From: Clostridia bacterium
GTDB lineage: Bacteria > Bacillota > Clostridia > Oscillospirales > Acutalibacteraceae
Direction: 5' to 3'
Assembly (NCBI GenBank): GCA_017474125.1
Contig: JAFVIF010000030.1
Coordinates: 1-59,156, forward strand
DNA length: 59,156 bases
Shown here: positions 7,266 to 33,961 of the stretch, piece after piece
Layout: each line of letters opens with the position of its first letter
How positions within the stretch are numbered: the first letter of the stretch is position 1
The notes under the pieces: model-generated
Told to the model about the DNA's origin: nothing
Databases searched by the model: none
What the model saw: the letters and a program-made list of their open reading frames with translations, nothing else
Position numbers and translations under genes: made by a program

Positions 7266-9254
7266 TTATAAAAGTTTCAAAACCTCTTCTTCACTTAAAA
7301 CGGGGACAGAAAGGCTTTTGGCTTTTGTTAGCTTGCTGCCTGCATTTTCTCCGCAAATAAGCAGGTCTGTTTTCGATGAAACAGAGCCCGAAACCTTTGC
7401 CCCGAGCTTTGTAAGCTTATCGGTAAGCTCATCTCTTGTAAAGCTTTCGAGAGTTCCTGTGATAACAATTTTTTTACCAAAGAAAAATGAGCTTTCATCT
7501 CCGCTTGCTTCGATTTCTTTAAAGGTTAAATAGTCGCAAACAGCTATAAATTCTTCTAAATTGCTTTGATTACTAAACCAGTTATACAGGTTATTGTTCA
7601 TAATATCCCCCAAGCCTTCAATTTCAGTGAAATCGTAATTTTGCTCAACGGCTTTTAAGAATTCCTGAACGTTGCCGGAAAAATTATCTTCAATAAGCTT
7701 TGCTGCGCTTTTGCCAATTAAGTCAATATTCATGGCAACCAAAAGGTTTGAAAGGGAAGTGGATTTAGCCGCTTCTATAGCCGCAACTAAATTATCAAAG
7801 GATTTTTGTCCAAAGCCTTCAAGGGCAACGATTTCTTTTTCGTAATCGGAAAGCGAAAAAATGTCACGCAATCTTAACAGCCAACCGTGTTTAATAAACT
7901 TCTCAATGGTTTGTTCGGATAAGCCGTCAATATTAAGCGCCGGCTTGCTGACAAAATGTGTGAATTTTTTAATGTTTTTTCCTGCGCAGTTCGTATTTTT
8001 ACAATACAAAACTTCTACGGTGCGGTTGTTGTTTTCGGTTGTCGATACGGTAGTGTTACCTGAACAAACGGGACAAACTAAGGGATATTTGAGAATATAT
8101 TCCTTTCTGTTTTCTGCATCAAGGTTTTTTTCTACGTGGGGAATAATCATATTGCGTTTTGAAACCATAATTCTGTCGTTTGGCAAAAGCTTTAAATCCT
8201 TAACAAAGGTCATGTTATGAAGGGAAGCTCGTTCAACAACAGTATTATCAATTTCTACCGCACTAAAGTGTGCTATGGGAGTTAACTGTCCTGTTCGCGA
8301 AATACTCCACTCAATTTCCATTAATTTGGTTTCAAAATGAGGATCACCGAATTTGAAGGCAATACCGTCCTTGAAGTGATGCGCAGTTCTGCCAAGTCCT
8401 GCGGAATAAACGGCGTCATCATAAAAGAAGACGATACCGTCTATAGGTAATCCCATTTTGCCGGCAGTAGCCTTTAAGCTGTAAATACTTTCGGTGATAT
8501 ATTTTGTGTCTGAGTCGGTTGATAGATTAATTGATGGAATTCGTGTAAAGCCGAATTCCTTAAGCTTATCAATTTTGGCGGTGCGCGAAACTACATCCTC
8601 AAGTCCCTCTAAAACGTTAAAAGGCATAAAGCATACGTTTCGTTCTTTACAAACTGCGGAATCGAGCTGTCTTACAGAGCCTGCCGCCAAATTTCTTGGA
8701 GTTGAATATTTTTCCTCATCGTTTTCAATTTTTTCGTTTATAGCATCAAATGTAGCAATGTCGATATACGCTTCACCGGTTACTCTGAGCAGACCCTTAT
8801 AAGGAATATTTCTTGGGATATTTTTAAATACCTTGGCATTATGAGTAATAATTTCACCGACGGTACCGTCGCCGCGAGTTGATGCTTCGGTTAAAATGCC
8901 GTTTTCAAATAATAGTTCAACGGTAAGTCCGTCGATTTTCAGAGCAAGATATCCTTCGTTGGCTTTTACCATATTTACTATATCGGAAGGGTCTTTAGTT
9001 TTAGCAAGACTTAATAGCGGTATTTTATGTGTTACCTTTGGAAGCTCTCCCAAAACCTCGTAACCTACGCGTTGCGTGGGGGACGTTGCAAGAATTACGC
9101 CGCATTCTTTCTCAAGAGCCGAAAGCTCATCAAAAAGCTCGTCGTACTGAGCATCGGAAAGGGTGGGAGTGAAACCGTTGTAGTATTCATCGGCGCATTT
9201 ATTGAGAAAATCAACCAGATATTTGATTCTGCTTATCTTTTCTTCATTCGTCAT
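7266..9254 (-). CDS. ligA: NAD-dependent DNA ligase
   Basis: Seals nicks in DNA using NAD. Domains in order: N-terminal Ia domain (YYNGFTPTLSDAQYDELFDEL), adenylation domain with the catalytic Lys106 in LKIDGLTVEL followed by STRGDGTVGE and RNLAAGSVRQLD, OB fold, a four-cysteine zinc finger (CPVC ... CKNTNC), helix-hairpin-helix repeats (NLLVAMNIDLIGKSAAKLI) and a C-terminal BRCT domain (KKIVITGTLESFTRDEL, DLLICGENAGSKL). Length 662 is normal. Its ATG overlaps the stop of the AraC gene in ATGA, so translation is coupled. The sequence departs from the usual LigA in places, for example ALKIDGLTVELLFENG, so a second, more standard copy elsewhere in the genome is possible. Confidence 0.95.
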   Translation of the reverse strand: MTNEEKISRIKYLVDFLNKCADEYYNGFTPTLSDAQYDELFDELSALEKECGVILATSPTQRVGYEVLGELPKVTHKIPLLSLAKTKDPSDIVNMVKANEGYLALKIDGLTVELLFENGILTEASTRGDGTVGEIITHNAKVFKNIPRNIPYKGLLRVTGEAYIDIATFDAINEKIENDEEKYSTPRNLAAGSVRQLDSAVCKERNVCFMPFNVLEGLEDVVSRTAKIDKLKEFGFTRIPSINLSTDSDTKYITESIYSLKATAGKMGLPIDGIVFFYDDAVYSAGLGRTAHHFKDGIAFKFGDPHFETKLMEIEWSISRTGQLTPIAHFSAVEIDNTVVERASLHNMTFVKDLKLLPNDRIMVSKRNMIIPHVEKNLDAENRKEYILKYPLVCPVCSGNTTVSTTENNNRTVEVLYCKNTNCAGKNIKKFTHFVSKPALNIDGLSEQTIEKFIKHGWLLRLRDIFSLSDYEKEIVALEGFGQKSFDNLVAAIEAAKSTSLSNLLVAMNIDLIGKSAAKLIEDNFSGNVQEFLKAVEQNYDFTEIEGLGDIMNNNLYNWFSNQSNLEEFIAVCDYLTFKEIEASGDESSFFFGKKIVITGTLESFTRDELTDKLTKLGAKVSGSVSSKTDLLICGENAGSKLTKAKSLSVPVLSEEEVLKLL

Positions 9255-10159
9255 AACGTGTTCTCCTGTCTTAAAATGGATGTTTTGTATTTTTTTGGAG
9301 TTTGACCTGTGTATTTTTTAAACGCTCTGTTAAAATTGGGACAGTTGTTGAAGCCGCATTTTAACGCTATTGAAATAATTGAATCGTTGGGATATTCAAT
9401 AAGTAACTGTGTAGCGAGAATAATTCTCTTTTCGCCTATGTAATCCCATAGCTTAACTCCTGTTTGCTCTCGGAAAATATTGGAAAAATAGTTAGGACTT
9501 AATTCTGCAACCGCTGAAATTTTTTCAAGTGTAAGTTCTTCATTTAAATGGGAATCAATATAATCAATGGCTTTTTTTAAAATCTTGTAATTTTTCGAAT
9601 AAGCATCAACCGGCGACATAATTTCGCTGATTGTATGATAATTTGTGTCGCGAGCGATAGTTAAAAGTATAGCTGCGCTGTATTGCAGAATTTCCATTTC
9701 ATAACCCGGCTGTTTAACGGTGAAAACATCTGCTATTCTCAGTAGCTCCTCCTTTAAAACCTTGGCAACGGGGTTGTTCATAGCAATAATGTTTTTAAAA
9801 CCCTTTGAATGCTTTGAGAAAAAACTGTACTCATCAAAAATGGGGCAGGTGGGCAGCATCTCTCCGAAAGACGACGGATCGATTTGAAGACATAGAAAAA
9901 CAGCGTTGCTGTCAGCACTGATTATTTCGGTACTGTCTTCACTGGAAAAAATTAATATGTCACCGTCACTTACGTCATAATTATTTTTAGTGGTTGTGAA
10001 TGAACAGCGCGGAGATTGCATAAGCCAAATTTCAAAATAAGGGTATTTTGCGCTTACTGAAATGTTTTCACCGGCAAAAACACTTTTGCTGGTCAGCTTA
10101 AGCGCGATGTCGTTGTTGTGATTGTAAATAAATTCATCAAAAACTTTGATTTGATACAT
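9251..10159 (-). CDS. AraC-family transcriptional regulator
   Basis: A 302-residue regulator. Residues 1-160 look like an AraC-type sensor (cupin-like) domain, with ISVSAKYPYFEIWLMQSPRC and VSDGDILIFSS typical of the sugar-sensing barrel. The last 100 residues are the double helix-turn-helix domain: LEKISAVAELSPNYFSNIF and IISIALKCGFNNCPNFNRAF, ending TGQTPKKYK. CAGGAG precedes ATG. The gene points away from the eight-gene transporter operon across a 373-nt gap, which suggests it controls that operon in response to a sugar; this is inference. Its four-base overlap with ligA downstream is unexpected. Confidence 0.92.
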   Translation of the reverse strand: MYQIKVFDEFIYNHNNDIALKLTSKSVFAGENISVSAKYPYFEIWLMQSPRCSFTTTKNNYDVSDGDILIFSSEDSTEIISADSNAVFLCLQIDPSSFGEMLPTCPIFDEYSFFSKHSKGFKNIIAMNNPVAKVLKEELLRIADVFTVKQPGYEMEILQYSAAILLTIARDTNYHTISEIMSPVDAYSKNYKILKKAIDYIDSHLNEELTLEKISAVAELSPNYFSNIFREQTGVKLWDYIGEKRIILATQLLIEYPNDSIISIALKCGFNNCPNFNRAFKKYTGQTPKKYKTSILRQENTL

Positions 10160-10532
10160 AAAAACTCCTGAATTTCACTAAAAATTGTATGAATGATAAA
10201 ATTTTAAAATATTTTATGATTTGTTTGTGCCGTGATTTGGCTATTTTTCTGTTGGCATTGTGCAATTTTGCTATCAAAATCCATTAAAATTATACTATTC
10301 ATTCATTAAATTGTCAATTAAATTAACAAAACCTACAAATCAAATTAATAAATTCGTAATATTTTTTATAAAATTCAGTATATATTTGTAGATTTATTTG
10401 CCAAAACATAGTATTCTATATAAGAACTATTCTGCATTATTGGGTCTATTTATGCATTTTTCGACTTTTTGTGTTAAATTTGCTTAAAACCATTTGCGCG
10501 GATTTGTTCTAAATCACTAATTGGAGTATGAT
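10160..10532. promoter_or_regulatory. AT-rich divergent control region between the AraC gene and the transporter operon
   Basis: No gene fits in this stretch. It holds two direct copies of TTTKGCTAT (10236-10244 and 10266-10274, 30 nt apart), a pattern close to the direct repeats upstream of the surface-protein operon near 34.0 kb (CAATTTGCTA on the minus strand). A weak promoter candidate for the plus strand is TTGCCA (10398-10403) with TATAAG (10419-10424), 15 nt apart; the short spacer would suit activator dependence. Assignment to the AraC protein is inference. Confidence 0.35.
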
Positions 10533-10907
10533 ATGCGTTTTATATTTAATGTAATAGTAGTATTTGCTTTTTCTTTATTATTAATATTTACTCTTGCTGC
10601 TTGCGGTAACAAGACTGAAGACGGCGGCAATTCTTCTGTGCCGAGTGAAGCTCCGTCGTCATCGGTAACTTCCGGCTCAACCGATGATGATAACGCTCTC
10701 GACGCTGACGATATTTTCGGTACCGACAGTTCTTCCTCAAGCTCTTCTGACGGCTCTGATGCTTCCGACGGTAGCGAATCATCCGATTCGTCCAATTCTT
10801 CCGATACTTCTTCCGATGCTTCCGACGCCTCTTCGGGTGATCAGCAGGATAATAATTCTTCGGGTATCGATTACGATGATCCAAGCATATGGACCGATCC
10901 CGTTTAA
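10533..10907 (+). CDS. Small Ser/Asp-rich lipoprotein, first gene of the transporter operon
   Basis: The protein is 124 residues. A hydrophobic signal peptide ends in the lipobox LAAC, giving lipid attachment at Cys near residue 22. Almost all of the rest is Ser, Asp, Gly and Ala with no predicted fold, resembling the flexible stalks that carry surface proteins through the wall. Only the last dozen residues (IDYDDPSIWTDPV) look sequence-specific, with two aromatic residues. The start at the ATG preceded by TTGGAG is chosen over a TTG 12 nt earlier that is itself part of the ribosome binding site. I do not recognise a family. It may hold the non-lipidated binding protein next to the membrane or wall; that is inference from position. 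Confidence 0.75.
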   Translation: MRFIFNVIVVFAFSLLLIFTLAACGNKTEDGGNSSVPSEAPSSSVTSGSTDDDNALDADDIFGTDSSSSSSSDGSDASDGSESSDSSNSSDTSSDASDASSGDQQDNNSSGIDYDDPSIWTDPV

Positions 10908-10986
10908 TACGGTACAATTAATTATTTGCTAATATTTACAGCTTTTGCTGTGTTAAGATATTAAATCTATATACGAGGGTGGCAAA

Positions 10987-13932
10987 ATGAAAAAGAAAAC
11001 ACTAAGAATGTTAGCCTGGCTGTTAGCAATTGTTATGATGTTTTCCGCGGCTTCTGTTTCTGTAATGGCAGCTCCGGAGGATAATCAAAACTCTGCTTCG
11101 GCTTCCGATTCGACAGCCGCAACCGATACGGTTGATAAGCTTGTTGAAGGCTCCGGTTCTGACTACGTTTCGTATCAGAATTCAAATGCCGGCGTTCCTG
11201 CTGCAAAGGAGGATATAGCAATTCCTGCTATTAATTATACCTCCGAAAACGGCAGTGGCGTTAAGGTTGGAGAAAAGTTCGGAAAAAAAGATGTGCTCTT
11301 ATGGGAAAGCCGTAACGGCAGTGTAACCTACACTTTTGATATTCCCGAAGAAGCTGTATACAACATTGAGTTTGAATACGGTCTTCTTGATTCCTCGGAG
11401 CGCGACCTTGATTTCGGTATTCAAATTGATGGAAAATTCCCGTTTGACGAAGCTTCTGCTCTTGAACTTCCCAGAATGTGGATGGATGCAACTGATTTCC
11501 GTACCGATGACGTTGGTAACCAGTTTGCTCCCGAACAGATTTCCTACGAAGGCTATGTTACCAAGGCTGCTTTTGATGCATCGGGTGCTTCTGTTTATCC
11601 TATGGAATTTAAGTTTACCAAGGGTACTCACACCGTAACCATTTTGAATAACGATTCCGAATCAATCGCTATATCTAAGGTCTGTCTTGCTGTTCCGGAG
11701 TCCAGTGCACCTACATACGCTGAGGTTTCGGCACAATATAAGGCTAACGGTTATAAGAGCGTTGCTGCAGAGCCCATTGTAATTGAAGGCGAAAGAGCTG
11801 ATATTAAGAGCACTCGTTCCTTGGTTCCTTATGCAGATAACTCTTCCAATCTTGTAACTCCTTCCAGTCCTACCTTGTCACAGATTAATTACATCGGTGG
11901 CGTAAACTGGGAAATGCCTAATCAGGAAATTGTATGGAATATCAACGTACCTGCGGACGGTCTTTATAATTTAGGCATTTTGTTCAAGCAGGACCTTGTT
12001 GTTAACGGTTTCTCATATCGTCATCTTCGTATTGATGGCGAAACTCCCTTCAAGGAGTGCGCAACTCTTCAGTTTAACTACAAAACAGGTTGGCAAACCT
12101 TTGAATTCGGTAACGGCGAAGAGCTTTATGATTTCTATCTTACCAAAGGTACTCATACTCTTTCTCTTACCGGTACTATGGGCAATCTTGCTTCCTCGTA
12201 TTATAAATTAAAGAATATTACCTCTGAAATCGGTAGCTTCTATATTGAAGTTGTAATGATTACCAGTGAATCTCCCGATAGAAATCGTGACTACGAGCTT
12301 TTCAGAACCGTTCCTGATTTTGAAAACCGTCTTTTAAATTTCTCTACCGAGCTCACTTCTCTCGTTGATGAAATGAAACGACTTTCAGGTGAAAAGGGAA
12401 GCAGTTACATTGCAGCCATCAATAATATGGTTCGTGTTATTGATTCTATGAGAAAGGAAAAGTACGAATCGCATCTTTACGTATCTGACTTCTATACTCA
12501 GTACACCACCTTGAGCTCTTGGTTATATGAAATGCAGGCAATGTCGGTTTCTATCGACCAAATGCAAATTATTCCTGCCGGTTCGGAGTTCAAGTTTAAG
12601 GAGTCAAACTTCTTTGCTAACCTTTCCTTCGGATGCCGCAGATTCCTCGCTTCCTTCGATGAGTCTTACAGCCGTGTATCTGTTTTAAAGGGCGGCGCCA
12701 AAACTATCAAGATTTGGGTTAACTGGGGCCGTGATCAGGCTCAGGTTCTTAACAATCTTATAAACGAGTCTTTTGTTCCTTATGCTGAAAAGGAACTTGG
12801 CTATTCAGTAAGTGTAAATCTTGAGCTTGTTAATGCCGATATTATTAAAGGTATGCTCTCGGGCAATGCTCCTGACCTATCGTTACATCTTGCCCGTTCT
12901 ACACCTGTTAACCTTGCGCTTCGTGGCGCACTCGTTGATCTTACTCAGTTCCCGGATTATAAGGATATTCTTCCTCGTTTCGGTAGTACCGCTTCTATTC
13001 CTTACGAATATAACGGTGGTGTTTACGCACTTCCAGATCAGCAGTCATTCTATATGATGTTCTACCGTCATGATATTTTTGAACAGTTAGGAATTGATGT
13101 TCCTCAAACCTGGGATGAGTACCTTGCTGTTACTGCAGTTCTTCAGCGTAACAATATGAACTCTTATTTACCCTACACTAAGATAAGTAATGCCGCTACC
13201 GTTAACACCGGTGTTGGCGGTCTGAATCTTTTCTGTTCTGTTCTTATGCAGCATGGTGAAGACGGTCAGCTTTATAACGCTGAGAGAAACCGCTGTATGA
13301 TGGATTCTCCCACATCTTTGCAGGCATTTACTTATTGGACTGATATGTACACTAAGTATAAGATTCCTACCGAAGCAAGCTTCTATAACCGTTTCCGTGT
13401 AGGTACTATGCCTCTTGGTATTATGGCTTATACTCAGTATACCACTCTTGCAGAAGCTGCTCCTGAAATTGCCGGTCGTTGGAGTATTGCTCTTATCCCC
13501 GGTGTAAAGGATGAAAACGGTAATATTAACCGAACCATTTCCGGTTCCGGTACAGGCTGTTCAATTCTTGCTACCTCTAAGAATCAAACCGAGGCTTGGA
13601 CATTCCTTAAGTGGTGGACTTCCGCAGAGGTTCAATCTCGTTATAACACCAACGTTGAATCTTTGATTGGTACTATTTCTCGTATTACAACCGCCAACCT
13701 TAAAGCATTTGAGGATATGGCATGGGAGCGCGATGACCTTAAGATTCTTCTCGCACAGCGTGATTGGATTGTTGAGGTTCCTGAGGTTCCCGGTAGTTAC
13801 TACGTATCTCGTTCAGTTGACCAGGCTTTCTGGAGCGTTGTTAATAAGGATAGCACTCCTAAGGATTCGCTTACTAAGTGGACTCTTGAAGCTAACAACG
13901 AAATTAAACGTAAGATTGCTGAATACAGCTGA
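10987..13932 (+). CDS. Extracellular solute-binding protein fused to two carbohydrate-binding-like domains
   Basis: The protein is 981 residues, more than twice a normal sugar-binding protein. A Sec signal peptide (1-29, cut near VMA-AP) lacks a lipobox cysteine. After a Ser/Asp-rich linker come two related beta-sandwich modules, about 75-235 and 262-420, each with a 'GxxxxTFxIPxxxxYNIxF' start and ending in TKGTHT (211-216 and 387-392). A helical section follows (445-530). From about 573 to the end is the family 1 type solute-binding domain (TIKIWVNWGRDQAQVLNNLI, APDLSLHLA, LGIDVPQTWDEYLAVTAVLQ, WTFLKWWTSAEVQSRY). It should capture an oligosaccharide outside the cell and pass it to the permeases that follow 19 nt later. 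How it stays at the surface is unclear, since there is no lipid anchor, sortase motif or C-terminal helix. Confidence 0.88.
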   Translation: MKKKTLRMLAWLLAIVMMFSAASVSVMAAPEDNQNSASASDSTAATDTVDKLVEGSGSDYVSYQNSNAGVPAAKEDIAIPAINYTSENGSGVKVGEKFGKKDVLLWESRNGSVTYTFDIPEEAVYNIEFEYGLLDSSERDLDFGIQIDGKFPFDEASALELPRMWMDATDFRTDDVGNQFAPEQISYEGYVTKAAFDASGASVYPMEFKFTKGTHTVTILNNDSESIAISKVCLAVPESSAPTYAEVSAQYKANGYKSVAAEPIVIEGERADIKSTRSLVPYADNSSNLVTPSSPTLSQINYIGGVNWEMPNQEIVWNINVPADGLYNLGILFKQDLVVNGFSYRHLRIDGETPFKECATLQFNYKTGWQTFEFGNGEELYDFYLTKGTHTLSLTGTMGNLASSYYKLKNITSEIGSFYIEVVMITSESPDRNRDYELFRTVPDFENRLLNFSTELTSLVDEMKRLSGEKGSSYIAAINNMVRVIDSMRKEKYESHLYVSDFYTQYTTLSSWLYEMQAMSVSIDQMQIIPAGSEFKFKESNFFANLSFGCRRFLASFDESYSRVSVLKGGAKTIKIWVNWGRDQAQVLNNLINESFVPYAEKELGYSVSVNLELVNADIIKGMLSGNAPDLSLHLARSTPVNLALRGALVDLTQFPDYKDILPRFGSTASIPYEYNGGVYALPDQQSFYMMFYRHDIFEQLGIDVPQTWDEYLAVTAVLQRNNMNSYLPYTKISNAATVNTGVGGLNLFCSVLMQHGEDGQLYNAERNRCMMDSPTSLQAFTYWTDMYTKYKIPTEASFYNRFRVGTMPLGIMAYTQYTTLAEAAPEIAGRWSIALIPGVKDENGNINRTISGSGTGCSILATSKNQTEAWTFLKWWTSAEVQSRYNTNVESLIGTISRITTANLKAFEDMAWERDDLKILLAQRDWIVEVPEVPGSYYVSRSVDQAFWSVVNKDSTPKDSLTKWTLEANNEIKRKIAEYS

Positions 13933-13951
13933 GAAAGGAGGAGCATAAATT

Positions 13952-14869
13952 ATGGCTAAGAAACCTAAGAAAATTGAAAGTAAACAAATGAGTTTCAAGG
14001 AAAGTGTTCCATATTACGTATTACTTGCTCCTTTCCTTTTGATGTTTATTTTGTTTACCGTTTTACCTATTCTTGCATCATTAGTCTTAAGCTTTTTCAA
14101 CTTTGATATGATTAAGACTCTTGATTTTAACGGCTTGGATAACTATGTTCGCCTTCTTGTTGGTGACGACATTTTTATGACAACCGTTAAAAATACTCTC
14201 GTATTTGCGGTAATTACGGGACCCGCAGGCTTCCTGCTTGCATTCGTTCTTGCTTGGTTCATTAACGAATTTTCTCCCTTTATAAGAACACTGCTTTCAT
14301 TTATGTTTTACTGTCCTTCTCTTGTAGGTAACGCTTACTTTATTTGGCAGGTTGCCTTTAGTAGTGACAGCTATGGTTACATAAACAGTGCTCTCCTTTC
14401 TATGGGATTTATTCAGGAGCCTATTTATTGGTTATCTAATGCAGAATATCTGCCTACGATTATTATTATTGTACAGCTGTGGCAAAGTATGGGTGTATCC
14501 TTCCTTTCTAACATTTCAGGTCTTCAAAACGTTAACGGCGAGCTTTACGAAGCAGGCGCTATTGACGGTATCAGAAGCCGTTGGCAGGAGCTTTGGTATA
14601 TAACTCTTCCCGCAATGCAGCATATGCTCCTTTTCAGTGCTGTTATGCAGATTGCAAGTGCATTCTCCGTTAGTGCTATTGCTGTTCAAATGGCAGGTTA
14701 TCCTTCCGTTAGCTATTGCGTTGATACCATCGTTTCCTACCTGTCCGACGTTGGTGGTACTCGTTATGAAATGGGTTACGCTTCCGCAATGTCTGTAATT
14801 CTGTTTATTATGATGGCGCTATCGCGTTCGTTAATTAAGAGGCTTATTAATAGCCTTGGAAATGATTAA
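13952..14869 (+). CDS. Sugar ABC transporter permease (MalF/LplB type), first pair
   Basis: The 305-residue membrane protein has six hydrophobic segments and the EAA loop near residue 198 (YEAGAIDGIRSRWQELWYIT), which docks the ATPase. The first segment follows VPYYVLLAPFLLMFILF, typical of MalF-like carbohydrate permeases. GAAAGGAGGAGC precedes ATG. It forms a heterodimer with the next gene product, 16 nt downstream. The cytoplasmic start is rich in Lys. Confidence 0.93.
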   Translation: MAKKPKKIESKQMSFKESVPYYVLLAPFLLMFILFTVLPILASLVLSFFNFDMIKTLDFNGLDNYVRLLVGDDIFMTTVKNTLVFAVITGPAGFLLAFVLAWFINEFSPFIRTLLSFMFYCPSLVGNAYFIWQVAFSSDSYGYINSALLSMGFIQEPIYWLSNAEYLPTIIIIVQLWQSMGVSFLSNISGLQNVNGELYEAGAIDGIRSRWQELWYITLPAMQHMLLFSAVMQIASAFSVSAIAVQMAGYPSVSYCVDTIVSYLSDVGGTRYEMGYASAMSVILFIMMALSRSLIKRLINSLGND

Positions 14870-14885
14870 AGGAGGGAGAATAAGA

Positions 14886-15800
14886 ATGTTTCGTGCTAAA
14901 GAATATAACTCGGCAGGTAAGCGAGTATTTATGAGAGTATCGAAAAAGAGTCAGGCTAAACGCTACACACGTTCTAAAGTCGGTAACTTTTTCTACATTT
15001 TGTTCTTAGTAGCATTCGGTGCTTTCTCGGTTCTTCCTCTCGTATACTCCATTGCTACTTCCTTTAAGCCCTTGGATGAGCTTATGATTTTCCCACCAAG
15101 CTTTTTGGTGCAGCGTCCTACTTTAGAAAACTATCTTGCTCTTCCCGGTTTGCTTTCTAACCTTCGTGTTCCGCTTTCAAGATACATATTTAACAGTCTT
15201 TTCGTTTCTGTTGTTTGTACCTTCCTTTACGTTGTTGTAGCTACCATGGCTGCCTTCGTACTTGCTCGAAGCGAAATTTACGGCAAAAAGGTTATCTTTA
15301 TGCTTGTACAGTTCGCGCTTCTCTTTAACGGTTATACCCTTGGTATTCCTCGTTATCTCATATATTCATATACAGGTATGATAGATACCTATTGGGTTAT
15401 GATCTTACCTCACATTGCTTCTACCATGGGTGTATTCCTTATGAAGCAGTATATGGAGGGCGCGCTACCGGTCGCGTTGTTGGAAGCAGCGCGAATAGAC
15501 GGAGCGGGGCCGTTCAGAATTTTCTGGCAGATTGTTCTGCCTATAGTTAAGCCTTGTTTGCTTACTCTTACGCTTTTCGGTTTCCGTGACGTATGGGCCG
15601 CTATTCCCGATGGTACCGTTTTCAGTGAAACACTTAAAACCTTACCTACTATTATGTCACAGATCACAGCAGGTGGTATTGCTCGTTCGGGTAGTGCCAT
15701 GGCAGTAACCGTAATTATGATGATTCCTCCTATTCTTGTATATATGATTTCTCAGAGTAGTATTAAGGAATCTATGAGTAGCGCCGGCATTAAAGGTTAA
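14886..15800 (+). CDS. Sugar ABC transporter permease (MalG type), first pair
   Basis: The 304-residue membrane protein has six segments and the EAA loop LEAARIDGAGPFRIFWQIVL, a good match to MalG-type permeases. The start at 14886 is chosen because AAAGGAGGG lies just before it; an in-frame ATG 30 nt earlier lies inside the previous gene and upstream of that site. The extended basic N-terminus (about 35 residues) before the first segment is longer than usual. It pairs with the preceding MalF-type subunit. Confidence 0.93.
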   Translation: MFRAKEYNSAGKRVFMRVSKKSQAKRYTRSKVGNFFYILFLVAFGAFSVLPLVYSIATSFKPLDELMIFPPSFLVQRPTLENYLALPGLLSNLRVPLSRYIFNSLFVSVVCTFLYVVVATMAAFVLARSEIYGKKVIFMLVQFALLFNGYTLGIPRYLIYSYTGMIDTYWVMILPHIASTMGVFLMKQYMEGALPVALLEAARIDGAGPFRIFWQIVLPIVKPCLLTLTLFGFRDVWAAIPDGTVFSETLKTLPTIMSQITAGGIARSGSAMAVTVIMMIPPILVYMISQSSIKESMSSAGIKG

Positions 15801-15814
15801 GGAGGATTTAATAA

Positions 15815-17953
15815 ATGAAAAACAGAATTATTCGTTTTATAACAGTTCTCCTTGCCTTAGTGATTGTTGTGGGAACCATACCTGCATCGGCAACCAATGG
15901 CTTTATCAAGGAATTTGGTGACATTCCTTACGATACCTTTACTTATTGGAACGGTGCCAACGTTGGTCATGATAAGCCCGTGCGTGCTACAGGTATGTAC
16001 AACTATTATAAAACCTACTTTAGTGAGGACGTAATCGGTGTAGACGTTAATTCCTTTACCGACGTATCGGTTGATACTAACGATATGGTTTATGTTCTTG
16101 ACGGTGCTACATCAAGAATTCACATATTTGATAAGAAGTATGATTATGTAAAAACAATTGGCGAATTGGTTGCTGAAGACGGTACTTCTTATAATTATGC
16201 AAAGGCTGAAAGTATTGTTGTATCTGCCGACGGCATAATTTACGTTTGTGATACCGAAAATCAACGTGTTCTTTTGGCTGATTTTGACGGTAAGCTAATA
16301 GGTGATCCCTTGCTCTTACCTGATTCAAACCTTATTCCTGAAGACTTTAAATATCGTCCTATGAAGATAGCTGTAGACTCCAGTAATTACATTTACGTTT
16401 TGAGTGATGGTTCATATTACGGTGCTATACTTTATTCTCCCAATGGCGATTTCCTCGGCTTCTTCGGTGCAAATACAGTGCCTACAACCGTTGTTGAATT
16501 CTTTAAGAGAATTTGGGAAGGCCTTATAATGACTGATGAAAGAAGAGCTACCGCAGAGCGTAAGCTTCCTTTCCAGTTTACCGATCTTTACGTTGATGGA
16601 CAGGATTTTATCTATACAGCAACCGGTCGTACTAAAAAGGGTATAGAAAAAGGTCAGGTTAAACGTTTGAGTCCCGGCGGACTTAATATTCTTGAGTCTG
16701 ACAGTGTTTCCTTCAGTCTTCACGCATCCCTGCCGAAACGTAACGATTATCGTTATCCTAACGTAGAGGGTCTCGCCGTAAGTGAGGATAATTACATTTA
16801 TACTTACGATAACAGTTCCGGCTATATTTCAATTTTTGATAACGACTGTAATATGCTTAATACCTTTGGCGGCGGTTCTGCAGGTAACGGAGATCAGGAC
16901 GGCACATTTATGATGGTTTCGGCTATCGATCTTAATTCCGAGAAGGATATTATTGTTCTTGACGATACCAAAAAATGTATGACCGTATTTAAGCTTAATG
17001 ATCACGGTAGAGTTCTTATGGAGGCGGGCAACCTTACTCGTAGCGGTGACTACGAGGCGGCACTTCCTCTTTGGCAGCAGGTGCTTAAGAATGACCGTAA
17101 CTGTCAGGTGGCTTATTCGGGTATTGCCAGAGTATACTACGCTGCAGGTGATTACGATAAAGCAATGGAATATGCAAAGATAGGCTTTGACTATCACACC
17201 TATTCTCTTTCATTCGAGTTTGTTCGTACCAGCTTTATCGAGGAATACATTTATGTAGTTGCCGGTGTTCTGCTTGTTTTGGTTGTTGCAATTATTCTAT
17301 TTGTTCACTTTAAGCGTAAGAAGAATATTGTTATACTTAAAAACCAAGAATTAAAGCTTCTTTCCAGAGTAATGTTGCATCCCGGTGAGGTATTTAACGA
17401 GGTTAAGCAGAAGAAACGCGGTTCTGTGCTAATCGGATTTATACTAATCGTTATATACTACGTTACCGCAACTATTATGCAAACTGAAAGCGGTTTCTTG
17501 TTTAAGTCTCCCAATAATACGAGCTTTAACTCTTTGCTTGTACTTCTCCAAACAGTTGGTGTTGTTCTTCTCTGGACAATATGTAACTGGGGTGTATGTA
17601 CACTTCAAGAAGGTAAGGGTAAAATGCGCGAGATATTCGTTGTTACCTCTTACAGTCTTGTTCCTCTGATTATTTCTAATATTGTTTATACCATTGCTTC
17701 TAACGCAATTCTTGCCAGCGAAGCCGCATTCTTAAATATTTTCGTAACTGTAATGCAGCTGTTTACAGCTTATATCCTTATTATGGGTACCATTATTGTT
17801 CACGACTATTCTTTCGGAAAATTTGTAGGAACTTCCATTATGTCACTTTTAGGCATACTTATAGTTGTGTTCCTCGGTATAGTAATTGTAATTCTTGTTC
17901 AGCAGGTGTTTATGTTCTTAGGAACTATTTACCGTGAATTTATGTATCGATGA
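15815..17953 (+). CDS. NHL-propeller / TPR / Yip1-domain membrane protein
   Basis: A 712-residue protein with a rare order of parts. Signal peptide 1-26; then an outside NHL-type beta-propeller (about 30-395) with repeats such as VSVDTNDMVYVLDGATSRIH, VSADGIIYVCDTENQRVLL and LAVSEDNYIYTYDNSSGYIS; a short TPR section (about 400-468, GDYEAALPLWQQVLKNDRNC, AAGDYDKAMEYAKIG); a transmembrane helix near 478-500; a basic linker; and a Yip1-type domain with about five membrane helices (520-712). Propeller and TPR would face out and the Yip1 part sits in the membrane. Its place between permeases and the DUF5696 protein suggests sensing or organising uptake, but no function is known. AAGGAGG precedes ATG. 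Confidence 0.85.
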   Translation: MKNRIIRFITVLLALVIVVGTIPASATNGFIKEFGDIPYDTFTYWNGANVGHDKPVRATGMYNYYKTYFSEDVIGVDVNSFTDVSVDTNDMVYVLDGATSRIHIFDKKYDYVKTIGELVAEDGTSYNYAKAESIVVSADGIIYVCDTENQRVLLADFDGKLIGDPLLLPDSNLIPEDFKYRPMKIAVDSSNYIYVLSDGSYYGAILYSPNGDFLGFFGANTVPTTVVEFFKRIWEGLIMTDERRATAERKLPFQFTDLYVDGQDFIYTATGRTKKGIEKGQVKRLSPGGLNILESDSVSFSLHASLPKRNDYRYPNVEGLAVSEDNYIYTYDNSSGYISIFDNDCNMLNTFGGGSAGNGDQDGTFMMVSAIDLNSEKDIIVLDDTKKCMTVFKLNDHGRVLMEAGNLTRSGDYEAALPLWQQVLKNDRNCQVAYSGIARVYYAAGDYDKAMEYAKIGFDYHTYSLSFEFVRTSFIEEYIYVVAGVLLVLVVAIILFVHFKRKKNIVILKNQELKLLSRVMLHPGEVFNEVKQKKRGSVLIGFILIVIYYVTATIMQTESGFLFKSPNNTSFNSLLVLLQTVGVVLLWTICNWGVCTLQEGKGKMREIFVVTSYSLVPLIISNIVYTIASNAILASEAAFLNIFVTVMQLFTAYILIMGTIIVHDYSFGKFVGTSIMSLLGILIVVFLGIVIVILVQQVFMFLGTIYREFMYR

Positions 17954-17969
17954 AAGGAGAGAACTTAAA

Positions 17970-20228
17970 ATGAATAAAATATTCAAAAAAGCTTTGATTA
18001 TAGTATTATGCTTGGCTATGGTTCTCTCTTTAGCCGCATGCGGTTCCTCGAACGCAGTTCTTATTGACCCGTTGAAGTTTGATAAGGAGCATACTAATAA
18101 AACCTCTGATTCTTTTATGATAACCAACGATTCTTCTGCTTACGAGCTTCATTGGGATGCTGAGAATTACCGAATTCTTCTCCGTGATAAGGTTACAGGG
18201 GAGTATCATTGTGCTACTCCCTCCGAAAAGCTTGAAAGCAGGGTGGGCGATAACGGTTTTCCGATTACAAATCATCCTAAGCTTGAGTCAAACATTATTA
18301 TAGAGTACGTAGATACCGTTAATAACTTTGCTACAAAAACTGCTAACGGCTACGTTCGTTCTCTTAAAACTAAAACCTATTCTATTGAGAAAACGGCTGA
18401 TGGTAACGGCTTTAAGCTGATTTATTATTTTGATAACGCCGATATTTCTATCCCTGTTATTTACACTCTTCTTGATGATGGTATTAAAATGACTATCGTT
18501 CCCGAAGAGATTACCGAATCAGGTGATAACATACTACATAAGGTTTCTATTTCTCCTTTTTTTGTATCTGTTCCCAATATTGATGAGGATGCGTATCTTT
18601 TCTATCCTTCGGGATCGGGAGCAATTATCAATGCGAATAACAGCAAAGAAATCAGTACGTATTTCTCTAACGAGGTTTATGGCTATGATGCTCTTCAAAG
18701 AGATTATATGGGTATTAGAGCAAACCCTGTAGAGTATATCAGAATGCCTGTTTTCGGTGCTAAAAACGGTGATAAAGGCGTTGTTGCAATAATTTCCGAA
18801 GGTGCTGAAACAGCCCTTATTGAGGGTGATATTGGAAACGCAACAATCGGTTATTCCGGTTTGTATGCTACCTTTAAAATTCGCGGTACCAATATTGCAA
18901 GTAAGGTTGCTAACGGACTTCAGTATTCTGAGCAATACGCACATACTCCTATGTCTGTTTGCTTTTACCCCTTAAGCGGCGAGGACGCTTCCTACGTTGG
19001 AATGGCTAAACGTTATCGTGAATTCCTCCAGAATGAAAGAGGAATGACCGATAAGGCAGAAAAAGCCTCGGCAGGTATTTCGCTTGTGGGCGGTAGCTTG
19101 CTTGATACTTCTTTCTTAGGTATGCCTACTAAGGAAGTATTTGCAACTACTACCGTAAAAGAAGCAGAAACAATTATTACCGAGCTTGATTCCAAGCTTC
19201 AGCTTCCTCTCGTTGCTGATTTAGTTGGTTTCGGTTCTTCGGGTATCGACGTAGGCAAGCCTGCAGGTAACCTTAAGCTTGCCAAAAACATAGGTACCGA
19301 AGCTCAGGCTAAGGAGCTTTCCGCTAAATGTAAAGAGCTTGGCATAGATCTTTATTTAGATTTTGACCTTGTGCACTTTAACTCTAACGGCCTTGGTCTT
19401 ACCGTTACAAGCGGTGGCTCTGCAAAGGGACCCGGTCACGTTTATACTCGTTTCTATGCTTACAGATTAGGTGATAGTCAGTCATCCTTTATGTCTTATC
19501 TTGTTGGACGTGATGAGCATTCCGCACTTGCTGACAAAGCTGCTGATTTCACTAAGTCTATGGATATTCAGGGTATATCCTTTAGAAAGCTTACCTCTCT
19601 TGCGTATTCAGATTATGCCGCTAACCGTACTATTGCCAAAGCAAATATGGGTAACGACGTTTCTGCAATTTTGCAGACTATGAACAAAGCCGGTCTTAAG
19701 GTGCTTGCTAATCAAGCTAACGATTATGCTGCTATCAATTCCGACGTAATTATTGAAGCACCTATTTGTTCTTCTATGCTTTCTATTTTTGATTACGACG
19801 TTCCTTTCTATCAAATTGTATTAAAGGGACACGTACCTATGTTTGGTACTGCAGTTAACACTACTACTAACAAAGATCTTACCGTTCTTCGTTGTGTTGA
19901 AGGTGGCTCTGCGTTAAGATACAGCCTTATTAACAACTATGACAACGATCTTCTTACTTCTATTTCTCAGATTTTCAACGCCGTAGTTTATGAAGATAAT
20001 GCTGAAAGTCTTGTGGCTACTATTAATGCTAATACCGATTATTTCAAAGCAATTGAAGATGCTCACATCGTAAATCACGTTTGCATAAATACCGATGTGC
20101 GTAAGGTTGTTTATGATAACGGTATTGTGGTTTATGTAAACTACGGTGACGTAGCGTACGAATCCGAACTCGGTAACGTTGAGGCAGGATCTTATATTTA
20201 CGGAAAGGAGGTAAGTAATAATGGCTAA
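17970..20228 (+). CDS. DUF5696-type lipoprotein
   Basis: A 752-residue lipoprotein: signal peptide with lipobox LAAC, lipid attachment at Cys24. After a short linker, about residues 40-330 form a beta-rich domain (YELHWDAENYRILLRDKVTG resembles the strand pattern of the DUF5696 N-terminus). The second half (about 360-700) alternates strands and helices like a TIM barrel, with carboxylate-ending strands such as LGIDLYLDFDLVHF and AAINSDVIIEAPICSS. This suggests a glycosidase-like barrel, but I cannot point to a proven catalytic pair. The start at 17970 follows AAAGGAGAG; an earlier in-frame start overlaps the previous gene and spoils the signal peptide. DUF5696 proteins are often encoded beside sugar ABC transporters. 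It overlaps the next permease gene by 8 nt. Confidence 0.75.
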   Translation: MNKIFKKALIIVLCLAMVLSLAACGSSNAVLIDPLKFDKEHTNKTSDSFMITNDSSAYELHWDAENYRILLRDKVTGEYHCATPSEKLESRVGDNGFPITNHPKLESNIIIEYVDTVNNFATKTANGYVRSLKTKTYSIEKTADGNGFKLIYYFDNADISIPVIYTLLDDGIKMTIVPEEITESGDNILHKVSISPFFVSVPNIDEDAYLFYPSGSGAIINANNSKEISTYFSNEVYGYDALQRDYMGIRANPVEYIRMPVFGAKNGDKGVVAIISEGAETALIEGDIGNATIGYSGLYATFKIRGTNIASKVANGLQYSEQYAHTPMSVCFYPLSGEDASYVGMAKRYREFLQNERGMTDKAEKASAGISLVGGSLLDTSFLGMPTKEVFATTTVKEAETIITELDSKLQLPLVADLVGFGSSGIDVGKPAGNLKLAKNIGTEAQAKELSAKCKELGIDLYLDFDLVHFNSNGLGLTVTSGGSAKGPGHVYTRFYAYRLGDSQSSFMSYLVGRDEHSALADKAADFTKSMDIQGISFRKLTSLAYSDYAANRTIAKANMGNDVSAILQTMNKAGLKVLANQANDYAAINSDVIIEAPICSSMLSIFDYDVPFYQIVLKGHVPMFGTAVNTTTNKDLTVLRCVEGGSALRYSLINNYDNDLLTSISQIFNAVVYEDNAESLVATINANTDYFKAIEDAHIVNHVCINTDVRKVVYDNGIVVYVNYGDVAYESELGNVEAGSYIYGKEVSNNG

Positions 20229-21150
20229 AAAAGATAAGATTAGTAAGCCTAAGAAGAGTATTCATGCCAGAGGTATTGAAGCTCTTAAGGAGCGCTATGG
20301 TTGGATATGTGTTGCGCCTTGGGTATTCGGTTTGATTATTTTCTTTATCATTCCTATTTTCCAGTCATTTATATTTACCTTCTGTAAGGTTACTCTTGTA
20401 ACCGGCGCGCTTAACACTAAGTTTGTGGGTTTAGAAAACCTTAAGTATATCTTCACTGTTGATCAGTATTTCCCCGATAACCTTGCAGCAGGTGTTGGTA
20501 CGTTTGCTTACTCTTTCCCAATTATACTTGTACTCAGTCTTATACTTGCTCTTATGCTTAACCAGAAGTTTAAGGGAAGAGTTTTCTTCCGTGCAATCTA
20601 CTTCCTTCCCGTTATTATAGCAAGCGGTGTTATTCTCGGTACAATTATCGGTGATACCAGCAGCGTTTCTAACGTTAGCGGCACTACAGATGAAGCGGTT
20701 TCTGCTAATATGATTAACGTTACCGAACTCGTTGAGTGGACCGGCTTGCCCGAGAAGATCGGTGAGTATTTCAATGATGCAATAACCAAGATTATGAACC
20801 TTGTATGGAAATGCGGTGTTCAGATTATTCTGTTTATTGCAGGTATGCAGTCAATACCTGACCTTTATTACGAGGTTTCCAAGGTTGAGGGTGCTACCGC
20901 TTGGGAAGAATTTTGGTTTATTACCTTCCCATCACTTTCACGTGTTATTACTCTGGTAACAGTATTTACAATGGTTGAACTTATGACTTCTCAGACCGAT
21001 AAGGTTATTAAGCAGGCTTACAACCTTATCAGTTCTCAGATGTTTGGAGAAAGCTCCGCTATTTTGTGGGTTTACTTCTGCATAATCGGTGCTATTCTCG
21101 GTGTAATTCTTTTTGCATTCAATCATTTCTGTGCCAAGAAGTGGGAATAA
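20221..21150 (+). CDS. Sugar ABC transporter permease (MalF type), second pair
   Basis: A 309-residue permease with six segments (PWVFGLIIFFIIPIFQSFIF is the first) and a degenerate EAA loop YYEVSKVEGATAWEEFWFIT near residue 219. Between the third and fourth segments is a loop of about 60 polar residues (TSSVSNVSGTTDEAVSANMI onward) that would face outside, not seen in the first-pair subunit. AAAGGAGG lies within the end of the previous gene. Translation is coupled by the 8-nt overlap. Confidence 0.92.
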   Translation: MAKKDKISKPKKSIHARGIEALKERYGWICVAPWVFGLIIFFIIPIFQSFIFTFCKVTLVTGALNTKFVGLENLKYIFTVDQYFPDNLAAGVGTFAYSFPIILVLSLILALMLNQKFKGRVFFRAIYFLPVIIASGVILGTIIGDTSSVSNVSGTTDEAVSANMINVTELVEWTGLPEKIGEYFNDAITKIMNLVWKCGVQIILFIAGMQSIPDLYYEVSKVEGATAWEEFWFITFPSLSRVITLVTVFTMVELMTSQTDKVIKQAYNLISSQMFGESSAILWVYFCIIGAILGVILFAFNHFCAKKWE

Positions 21151-21163
21151 GGAGGTTTGAATC

Positions 21164-22177
21164 ATGGCAGAATTTATTAATAAGCTCTTTGGTTCCGGAA
21201 ATTCGGAAAAAACCTCTAACGCTTCCTCACTTGCGGCTTACAGAACAAAAAGAGTTATTTCTTCCGTATTAATTTCAATATTCAGATACGCTCTTTTGAT
21301 TTCTGTTAGCTATGTTGTTCTTTACCCGCTTTTCTATATGATCTCTAATTCCGTTAAAGATCTTATTGACTGGTCGGATCCTAACGTTTTCTGGATTCCG
21401 AAGCATTTTACCGGCTTGTGGTATGACTGGGCTATGGGTGCTCTTGATTTCTTCAACGCGCTTAAAAACACCGTTCTTTTTGAATTGGTTGCCGCATTCC
21501 TTGAGATTTTATCCTGTTCCTTAGTTGCTTACGGTCTTGCTCGTTTCAAGTTTAGAGGTAAATCTATCTTAATGTTTATGCTGATCCTTACAATTCTTGT
21601 TCCCGATCAGATGATTATTATTCCTAAGATGATGAACTTTGCTAACCTTGATTTATTCGGAATTATTGGTTTGATTAACAAAATCAGCGGTGCAGGAATT
21701 AGAATTAATATTCTTAATACAGGATTTGTATTCTATTTGCCATCTATATTTGCTGTTGGTCTTCGTTCCGGTATTATTATTTATATCTATATGCAGTTCT
21801 ACAAGGGACTTCCAAGAGAGCTTGAAGAAGCCGCTTGGATTGACGGTGCCGGTCTTTTCAAAACCTATACCAAAATTGCTCTGCCTTCATCCGGCGTTGT
21901 AATTACCACCGTTTCTATTTTCTCTATTATATGGCATTGGAACGATTACTATTTGGCAATTATGTATATGAACGATGCTGAAGCTATGCCTCTTGCAGTT
22001 CGTCTTTCGAATATTCAAGCCGTTATGACCACCTTGCATAACGTTTGGGGTGGTGCAAAGCTTACTGCTACACAGTGTGCGGCTTGTATTTTGTTCATTG
22101 CGCCTATGCTTATTATGTATATTATTCTTCAACGTAAATTCGTTAAGAGTATCGATCGTGTAGGTATTACAGGTTAA
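21164..22177 (+). CDS. Sugar ABC transporter permease (MalG type), second pair
   Basis: A 337-residue permease with six segments and the EAA loop LEEAAWIDGAGLFKTYTKIA near residue 222. An insertion around residues 168-185 (GLINKISGAGIRINILNTG) lengthens it relative to standard MalG. AAGGAGG precedes ATG. It is the last gene of the operon and the second half of the second permease pair. No ATPase gene follows; a shared MsmK/MsmX-type ATPase encoded elsewhere would be needed. Confidence 0.93.
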   Translation: MAEFINKLFGSGNSEKTSNASSLAAYRTKRVISSVLISIFRYALLISVSYVVLYPLFYMISNSVKDLIDWSDPNVFWIPKHFTGLWYDWAMGALDFFNALKNTVLFELVAAFLEILSCSLVAYGLARFKFRGKSILMFMLILTILVPDQMIIIPKMMNFANLDLFGIIGLINKISGAGIRINILNTGFVFYLPSIFAVGLRSGIIIYIYMQFYKGLPRELEEAAWIDGAGLFKTYTKIALPSSGVVITTVSIFSIIWHWNDYYLAIMYMNDAEAMPLAVRLSNIQAVMTTLHNVWGGAKLTATQCAACILFIAPMLIMYIILQRKFVKSIDRVGITG

Positions 22178-22181
22178 TTTA

Positions 22182-22215
22182 AAAAGTGGCTTCTTTGAAA
22201 GAAGCCACTTTTTTA
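22182..22215 (+). terminator. Terminator of the transporter operon
   Basis: Stem AAAAGTGGCTTC/GAAGCCACTTTT extended by a few pairs, followed by six T. It starts four bases after the last permease stop. Confidence 0.9.
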
Positions 22216-22220
22216 TATAA

Positions 22221-22253
22221 AAACAGTCGGATAAGTATCCGACTGTTTTTTGG
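22221..22253 (-). terminator. Terminator of pgcA (also readable on plus strand)
   Basis: A 13-bp stem AAACAGTCGGATA/TATCCGACTGTTT with A- and T-runs on both sides, directly after the pgcA stop. It backs up the preceding terminator for plus-strand transcripts. Confidence 0.85.
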
Positions 22254-24144: not shown

Positions 24145-24353
24145 AATAAAAGATAGAGGCGCGATTTGTTATTATTAGCATCACGTTTAATGCCCGACGG
24201 GGAAATATGTGCTGTGAAAGGAACGGTCGCCGAAGATGTCCTCCGGTGGGAGGTATTCTGGTAATTTGAAATAATATTCACTTTACTGTCGCAGTAATCT
24301 GCGGAGTGCTATCGAAACCGGTACAAAATTCTTTTCCTGAGTACCAGATTTTG
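24145..24353 (+). promoter_or_regulatory. Lysine riboswitch (L-box): aptamer and antiterminator
   Basis: The leader shows the conserved L-box core: GATAGAGGCGCG at the 5' side, GTGAAAGGAACGGTCGCCGAAG in the centre (24213-24234), a CTGTCGCAG segment near 24287 and the closing CTATC. P1 pairs GATAG (24152-24156) with CTATC (24309-24313). The same CTATC and the following AAACCGGTAC can instead pair with GTACC...GATAG (24341-24357) as an antiterminator. Bound lysine would favour P1, free the GATAG arm and let the terminator form. It controls dapA and lysA, the two lysine-specific genes behind it, which fits the known regulon. Confidence 0.95.
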
Positions 24354-24378
24354 ATAGCCGATTTGTCGGCTATTTTTT
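24354..24378 (+). terminator. Riboswitch-controlled terminator
   Basis: Stem ATAGCCGA/TCGGCTAT with loop TTTG and a run of six T. Its 5' arm is shared with the antiterminator, so the two structures exclude each other. It lies 29 nt before dapA. Confidence 0.9.
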
Positions 24379-24407
24379 ATTGTAAAAAAGCTTTGGAGGC
24401 ATTTATT

Positions 24408-25298
24408 ATGAAAAAGACAGTTTTTACGGGTATCGGTACCGCGCTTGTAACACCGCTTAATGAAAACGGTATTGATTATGAAGCGTTTGGTCGCCTTATT
24501 GATTGGCAAATTGCCGAAGGCGTAAATGCACTTGTTGTTTGCGGTACTACCGGTGAAGGCTCCACTCTTACCGATGAAGAGCATAGAGCAGCTATTGATT
24601 TTTCAGTTAAAAGAGTTGCAGGCCGAGTTCCCGTTATTGCAGGTACCGGCTCTAACGATACCGCATATGCAATTGAACTTACAAAGCACGCTTGTGAGTG
24701 CGGTGTAGACGGCGTTCTTGTAGTAACACCGTATTATAATAAAGCAACTCAAAAAGGCCTTATTGAAATGTTTAAGGCTATTGCCGATGCATCTACCGCT
24801 CCTGTAATTCTTTATAACGTTCCTTCGAGAACAGGTTGCAATATTGAGCCTAAAACTGTATCCGTGCTTGCAGATCATCCTAATATTGTTGCAATTAAGG
24901 AAGCTTCGGGTAATATTTCTCAAATTGCTGAAACTATTCACCTTGCGGGAGACAGAATTGACGTGTATTCGGGTAACGATGACCAAATCGTTCCGATTCT
25001 TGCTTTAGGCGGCAAGGGTTGTATTTCTGTTCTTTCCAATCCTTTGCCTAAAAAGAGTGTTGAAATCTGCGATAGGTTCTTTAGCGGCGACGTAGCAGGC
25101 TCTGCTAAGCTTCAGCTTGAATTACTTCCTCTTATCAACGCGCTGTTCTGTGAGGTTAATCCTATTCCCGTAAAGTCTGCAATGGCTGCAATGGGCTTTT
25201 GCGATGAATATCTTCGTTCTCCGCTTACCGTTATGGAGCCCGAACACCGCGAGGTGCTTTTTGCGGAGATGCGCAAGCAGGGAATTGATATTAAATAA
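24408..25298 (+). CDS. dapA: 4-hydroxy-tetrahydrodipicolinate synthase, riboswitch-controlled copy
   Basis: Condenses pyruvate with aspartate semialdehyde, the first committed step to diaminopimelate and lysine. At 296 residues it has the TIM-barrel landmarks: GTTGEGSTL with Thr47 and Thr48, LYNVPSRTG with Tyr136 and Arg141, and the Schiff-base Lys164 in IKEASGN. The start at 24408 is fixed by TTGGAGG; the longer frame begins inside the riboswitch. lysA follows 17 nt later. A second dapA (near 48 kb, with dapB) makes this one the lysine-repressible copy. Confidence 0.96.
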   Translation: MKKTVFTGIGTALVTPLNENGIDYEAFGRLIDWQIAEGVNALVVCGTTGEGSTLTDEEHRAAIDFSVKRVAGRVPVIAGTGSNDTAYAIELTKHACECGVDGVLVVTPYYNKATQKGLIEMFKAIADASTAPVILYNVPSRTGCNIEPKTVSVLADHPNIVAIKEASGNISQIAETIHLAGDRIDVYSGNDDQIVPILALGGKGCISVLSNPLPKKSVEICDRFFSGDVAGSAKLQLELLPLINALFCEVNPIPVKSAMAAMGFCDEYLRSPLTVMEPEHREVLFAEMRKQGIDIK

Positions 25299-33890: not shown

Positions 33891-33961
33891 AAGCAATACT
33901 CCTTTAATTATTTGAAATTACAAATTGGTTGTATCTACACAAAGTGCAATTTTACACCTAT

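Follow-up and report, generated by a model that had tools for sequence, protein, structure and literature searches.

The closest described systems are the carbohydrate importers of the CUT1 type (MalEFGK2 and MsmEFGK), which have MalF/MalG permeases, a MalE-type solute-binding protein (SBP) domain and an unlinked MalK-type ATPase in common with the gene block described here. Importers powered by MsmK, in the portions of the literature consulted, likewise depend on an unlinked promiscuous ATPase, and the number of SBPs per permease pair can exceed one. For Anaerocellum bescii, two SBPs serving a single permease pair are described in the part of that source used here (PMC12838199). We analysed a 59,156-nucleotide contig of a Clostridia bacterium (JAFVIF010000030.1 of assembly GCA_017474125.1; the window) that carries an operon with two permease pairs.

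Results

Organization of the operon

All eight genes lie on the plus strand in the order given by an earlier note on this DNA (Table 1). Its description of an operon with tight spacing and a double terminator was confirmed by the open reading frames, the gaps between them and hairpin folding. In the mechanical ORF list the gaps from gene 1 to gene 8 are 79, 19, −14, 14, −20, −8 and 13 nt; the −20 nt between genes 5 and 6 becomes about +16 if gene 6 starts at its ATG. The hairpin pair after G2 had a folding energy of −37.7 kcal/mol (z = −9.96), and 0 of 200 shuffled sequences folded as low. A consensus scanner did not list the hairpins at 22185–22249; it gave 11 terminator-like sites (12.3 in shuffled sequences) and 49 promoter-like ones, for which shuffling gave 37.0 (sd 6.4). 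The divergent AraC-family gene is likely to be the local regulator of the operon, and a sigma-70-like site with a 12/12 match (10317–10289) is oriented towards it. The operon itself contains no glycosidase genes, and the next gene downstream, for a sugar-phosphate mutase, is convergent with it.

Table 1. Features of the operon and its immediate surroundings in the window.
Feature	Position	Strand	Description
AraC-family regulator	9251–10159	−	divergent, upstream of gene 1
Gene 1	ORF 10521–10907, ATG 10533	+	short Ser/Asp-rich lipoprotein (LAAC)
Gene 2 (S)	10987–13932	+	oversized binding protein
Gene 3 (F1)	13952–14869	+	MalF-type permease, pair 1
Gene 4 (G1)	14856–15800	+	MalG-type permease, pair 1
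Gene 5 (Y)	15815–17953	+	NHL + TPR + Yip1 membrane protein
Gene 6 (D)	ORF 17934–20228, ATG 17970	+	DUF5696 lipoprotein (LAAC), predicted GH129-like fold
Gene 7 (F2)	20221–21150	+	MalF-type permease of pair 2, matching models weakly
Gene 8 (G2)	21164–22177	+	MalG-type permease, pair 2
Two terminator hairpins	about 22185–22209 and 22220–22249	+	between G2 and convergent sugar-phosphate mutase gene

Elsewhere in the window there are two dihydrodipicolinate synthase-family genes (24306–25298 and 47799–48686), one adjoining an Orn/DAP/Arg decarboxylase-type gene and the other DapB. Two very large List_Bact-repeat proteins (30138–33896 and 42086–46834) each adjoin a gene of 620–626 aa, and one of these has GH16 similarity slightly below the cut-off.

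Components of the operon

The operon encodes a single binding protein, S, as the earlier note had stated, and this protein is of the MalE type expected of a CUT1 importer. Pfam placed SBP_bac_8/1 at about residues 620–886 of S, and a CBM_35 match scored under its cut-off. The structure model predicts β-sandwich domains at about 60–240 and 260–397, the second CBM35-like, followed by a helical region (399–517) and a MalE-type SBP domain (571–981). S has a signal peptide without a lipobox. BPD_transp_1 was found by Pfam in F1, G1 and G2; F2 alone gave no Pfam match, UgpA/MalF models matched it weakly, and it passed the permease cut-off only with neighbours included in the frame. An EAA-loop expression was satisfied by 108 F1, 108 G1, 110 F2 and 106 G2 proteins from the 111 complete gene blocks described below. 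The operon thereby has the MalF/MalG-type permeases with EAA loop of a CUT1 importer, F2 only weakly so. Judged from their sequences, both permease pairs belong to CUT1-type carbohydrate ABC importers, sugar transport itself being a prediction.

Gene 5 encodes NHL, TPR and Yip1 domains (Pfam; Yip1 57.8 bits, cut-off 28.6). A fusion of Yip1 with DUF5696 was considered and rejected, because the D and Y profiles never hit the same ORF.

Gene 6 matched DUF5696 (PF18952) with 413.2 bits (cut-off 25.6), and its model (mean pLDDT 87.6) has the predicted fold of a GH129-type glycosidase. The GH129 Pfam model did not match gene 6, for which DUF5696 alone was listed at E up to 0.01. We take the catalytic pair of the GH129 enzyme NagBb to be the nucleophile Asp-435 and the acid/base Glu-478. 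In D, position 552 after strand 4 is Lys in the window; Asp stands there in 72 of the 135 module proteins (a set that omits a fragment of <600 aa, L044) and in 25 of 25 standalone proteins. There is no conserved Glu at positions 592–596. The equivalence of these positions to those of NagBb was inferred from strand order. In sequence searches with the C-terminal half of D the alignment stopped before the nucleophile or else the matches were mostly to repeat proteins, and a GH129 search of 199 phylum genomes gave 0 matches, as did its control, so that it is uninformative. The window's D is predicted to have a GH129-like fold without a clear catalytic set. That DUF5696 is dead throughout the module class, as a first count of Asp-552 in 11 of 38 proteins had suggested, was weakened by the 72 of 135 in the larger set. 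The standalone DUF5696 proteins of the window's family (e.g. L064:8986–11331) have no permeases or Yip1 encoded next to them and carry the invariant Asp; from their sequences they are possibly active enzymes.

Conservation of genes 2–8

The 161 DUF5696 loci that we read comprise the window itself, 80 selected stretches and the 80 highest-ranking of 343 hits to named genomes, including those of Paenibacillus, Cohnella, Bacillus, Acetivibrio and Ruminiclostridium MAGs; at least three pairs of loci are copies (L116/L121, L047/L131 and L107/L199). A complete block of genes 2–8 was present at 111 loci and a partial block at 25, many of these at contig ends, while 25 loci, all in the window's own family, had a DUF5696 gene without other block genes, so that DUF5696 can exist without the block. 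The usual order is S-F1-G1-Y-D-F2-G2; three of the 111 complete blocks are swapped (Y-D-F2-G2-S-F1-G1) and three have another order. F2 directly follows D in all 111. Y is split into two genes, NHL-TPR and Yip1, in 56 complete blocks and fused in 49. Among the downstream neighbours, GH26 (12/98) and GH38 (6/98) were found in a wider set and β-helix proteins (7/67) in the window's family.

DUF5696 scored above the cut-off in 39 of 398 phylum genomes and, within the window's family, in 66 of the 150 examined. A full-length match was found in 37 of the 398 (window included), with weak partial matches in nine more. All 37 contain Y (E ≤ 1e-20) and 36 contain the N-terminus of S (E < 1e-100), which in the remaining genome (G252) is cut by a contig end. 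Outside these 37, Y occurred once as a fragment (G392) and S twice on short contigs (G253 and G303), with weaker S-like matches in seven genomes. Since in many genomes at most three, two and three candidates were scored for the three markers, copy numbers are not comparable.

The grouping of these genes is thus supported for genes 2–8 well outside the window genome, with 111 of 161 loci complete and the three markers together in 37 of 398 genomes; it does not extend to gene 1. This gene has no Pfam match, a phmmer search (E 1e-5) of the first 81 loci with their 3149 ORFs matched only gene 1 itself, and the 900 nt upstream of S at the loci scanned showed nothing similar. Gene 1 lies outside the conserved block and was seen only in the window, which leaves genes 2–8 as the unit to be explained. 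The idea that gene 1 is a remnant of an SBP gene was set aside because no homologue was found. The block is a real, conserved composite of two CUT1-type importers and two accessory proteins, undescribed as far as searched.

ATPases

No ATPase gene is present among the window's eight. The window genome has one OB_MalK (PF17912) match, on contig C68, in a protein with ABC_tran, OB_MalK and TOBE_2 domains, and it thus contains the MalK/MsmX-type ATPase that goes with a CUT1 importer. We infer that both window pairs are powered by an unlinked ATPase, most likely this one. An ABC ATPase gene stands directly before S in 10 of 111 blocks (L103, L132, L145, L146, L153, L161, L164, L166, L174 and L179), two such genes in eight, and none of the ten has a linked small SBP gene of the kind described below. 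Four of these ATPases were checked; ABC_tran matched and OB_MalK did not. The nearest relatives of one of them in the window genome are a 235 aa ATPase on C14 (44%) and a 1002 aa protein on C67 (42%); the MalK-type protein on C68 is at 33%. The source of energy may differ between clades. The ATPase pair (about 240 and 320 aa) is seen at L146:627–2342 and L164:724–2387 and alike at L132, L145, L153, L161, L166 and L174, and the longer protein has a C-terminal MazE_antitoxin match.

A second family of binding proteins

A canonical SBP gene, here called s, is linked to 85 of the 111 complete blocks (same strand, at most two genes before S or three after G2). It lies upstream of S in 60 and downstream of pair 2 in 28, with both in three. 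An earlier count had found an SBP-labelled gene directly upstream of S in 30 blocks, and 32 further upstream genes gave overlapping counts of 19 SBP_bac_8 and 13 SBP_bac_1 matches. For 68 of 86 blocks, the first SBP encoded inside a range of nine genes has a lipobox, as defined by a regular expression; S has one in 4 of 111 blocks and D in 11 of 111. In an SBP tree of 128 rows, made by a quick method and rooted at the midpoint, 99 of 104 module-linked SBPs fell into one set of 106 (SH-aLRT 95), separate from the S domains (support 100) and from the SBP on C18 of the window genome. The module-linked rows outside this set are those of L106, L111 and L051 (upstream) and L186 and L188 (downstream).

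The genomes of all 26 blocks without a linked s also contain matches to the s profile (E ≤ 1.2e-15). In the first 15 the E values were 6e-97 to 1.2e-15; the window's genome matches by construction and the other 14 contributed no row to the profile. The remaining 11 all matched as well (best E 8e-74 to 6e-53), with 1 to 21 matches per genome, of which a few weak ones are S itself. At L048, L061, L062, L063 and L083 the match lies no more than about 2 kb upstream of S, just beyond the flank used. In a control of 20 family genomes with standalone DUF5696 a single match (G003) had E < 1e-14, and 7 of 20 matched at the preset 1e-8. The s-profile matches are not all placed in the tree, and they discriminate little in SBP-rich genomes (61 matches in G413, 15 in G533). 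Tandem runs of about five matches occur at G546:C42:4425–12606 and G553:C9:23873–31926, in genomes holding the block.

The window genome itself has two s genes on C73 and a piece of a further one on C47, the latter matched by the profile only (E 2.7e-39); neither contig has a permease match. The two C73 SBPs group (support 98) with the SBPs of L085, L082, L089 and L073, which stand directly behind pair 2. These are the four blocks nearest to the window by summed permease score; by the S domain alone the nearest is L086, whose contig ends after G2. The apparently missing second receptor of the window is thus most probably encoded at another place in the window genome. As this genome is 86% complete, the C73 SBPs may also adjoin a transporter that was left unassembled. 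On C73 (L207:1–2019) the two SBP lipoprotein genes lie in tandem and are preceded by two genes, one lipoprotein-like (365 aa) and one of 1143 aa. On C47 (L248:3–3311) the SBP piece lies next to genes for an AraC-type regulator and for a kinase of the APH family (PF01636), the kinase presumably resembling N-acetylhexosamine kinases. That the SBP piece at the C73 edge and that on C47 form one gene was rejected, because the overlapping residues differ; by sequence they are probably separate paralogues. At least two s genes with one block in the window genome, together with the multi-match genomes, make it likely that several receptors serve one two-importer block.

Assignment of receptors to permease pairs

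The two halves of the block are encoded apart in a minority of genomes, which in part is the separation that the earlier note had named as speaking against a single system. In these split loci, which derive from few related genomes, s lies within three genes of five of six isolated Y-D-F2-G2 halves; at the six isolated S-F1-G1 loci it is absent from that range. No s was seen beside six pair-2 halves that lie at contig ends, where the sequence stops. In blocks with swapped halves s precedes Y in L115, L118 and L261 and does not in L120. The other observation that the earlier note had singled out, a second canonical SBP always beside pair 2, also agrees in part: such an SBP is usual, yet 60 precede S versus 28 that follow pair 2. 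Four of the six isolated S-F1-G1 halves (L251, L260, L263 and L265) share genes upstream of S on the opposite strand, with products of about 329, 340 and 355 aa, and the 457 aa neighbour of another (L254) is a GH32 protein.

Raw distance correlations fail to single out s (0.85–0.89, versus 0.85–0.93 among the core proteins). In partial rank correlations, calculated for 78 blocks, S-F1-G1 and Y-D-F2-G2 each form a group, and s is closest to D and Y. The values were 0.39 for S-F1, 0.37 for D-F2 and 0.32 for S-G1, with cross-links S-F2 0.27, Y-F1 0.19 and s-G1 0.18. Y gave 0.23 with G2, 0.20 with s, 0.19 with D and 0.19 with F1; s gave 0.21 with D, 0.20 with Y, 0.10 with G2 and 0.03 with F2.

Discussion

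We consider it probable that the block represents two CUT1-type importers that are kept as a unit, with S feeding pair 1 and s feeding pair 2. Importer 1 would consist of F1/G1 and S, with its N-terminal β-sandwich domains and no predicted lipid anchor. Importer 2 would combine F2/G2 with ordinary lipoprotein-type SBPs and have as accessories DUF5696, probably involved in glycan binding or handling, and the NHL-TPR-Yip1 membrane protein, both presumably located at the surface beside pair 2. As s genes may be linked, unlinked or multi-copy, several receptors could serve one block; those of the window genome would be encoded on C73 and C47, and the ATPase on C68 would drive both pairs.

The sharing of one receptor by two transporters, which the earlier note had put forward, is not borne out. 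That both pairs use the big receptor S, a very improbable arrangement by our assessment, could be read from the presence of one SBP in the operon and the S-F2 correlation of 0.27, and the reverse, two SBPs per permease pair, is known from the A. bescii system as far as that source was covered (PMC12838199). It is countered by the second SBP family, which was linked to 85 of 111 blocks, matched in the genomes of the other 26, directly follows pair 2 in the four blocks nearest by permease score, has unlinked kin in the window genome and goes with the pair-2 half where the halves part, while S accompanies F1/G1 alone in six isolated halves. Because D tracks F2 (0.37, the second strongest partial correlation) and s barely does (0.03), the protein that docks on pair 2 could be D and not s. 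We regard it as unlikely, though less so than a shared S, that DUF5696 is the extracellular partner of pair 2, as receptor (another option of the earlier note) or substrate feeder, with the small SBPs as helpers. The invariable position of F2 after D agrees with this role, and an Asp-552 kept in 25 of 25 standalone versus 72 of 135 module proteins would be expected if binding matters more than cleavage. However, D is predicted to have a GH129-type fold instead of the hinged one of SBPs, the block comes with a canonical SBP family, neighbouring genes may share history without contact, and with Asp kept in 72 of 135 proteins many may be active.

A doubtful but conceivable alternative, close to the link through the Yip1 protein that the earlier note had suggested, is that Y and DUF5696 form the scaffold and the glycan grip of one large surface complex holding both importers. 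The joint presence of Y, D and S in 37 of 398 genomes and the modest correlation of Y with both halves agree with it, but the halves are encoded apart in some genomes and no ORF joins D to Y. A similarly doubtful reading is a so far undescribed Gram-positive uptake hub in which a Y scaffold would hold the two-importer block, unlinked and interchangeable receptors would feed it, and D, often without the Asp retained by its standalone relatives, would dock on pair 2 and pass glycan to it.

With separate receptors for the two pairs as the preferred reading, an operon that is short of receptors may draw on receptors encoded elsewhere. Since the block occurs in many Paenibacillus, Cohnella and Clostridia genomes, in some beside glycan-degrading enzymes, Gram-positive bacteria may have in it an important means of taking up complex glycans. 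DUF5696 gains a predicted fold and partners, and a bacterial Yip1 protein gains a testable setting.

The earlier note knew of no described system with this gene set, and this stands within open-access full texts: no account of the block was found in those covered (including PMC12838199, PMC4765114 and PMC8106489, as far as their text was drawn on), and open-access full texts gave no mention of DUF5696. D differs from the GH129 glycosidases (NagBb and the Zobellia 3,6-anhydro-D-galactosidase) in that the GH129 Pfam model is unmatched and position 552 is Lys in the window. The MsmK-powered importers have one permease pair and, in the portions of text consulted, no mention of DUF5696 or NHL-TPR-Yip1 proteins, whereas the block has two pairs. 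Compared with the CUT1 importers MalEFGK2 and MsmEFGK, the block is distinguished by its two permease pairs, a big SBP with β-sandwich domains and two obligate extra proteins, and in 10 of 111 cases by ABC ATPases encoded before S, the four checked being without OB_MalK.
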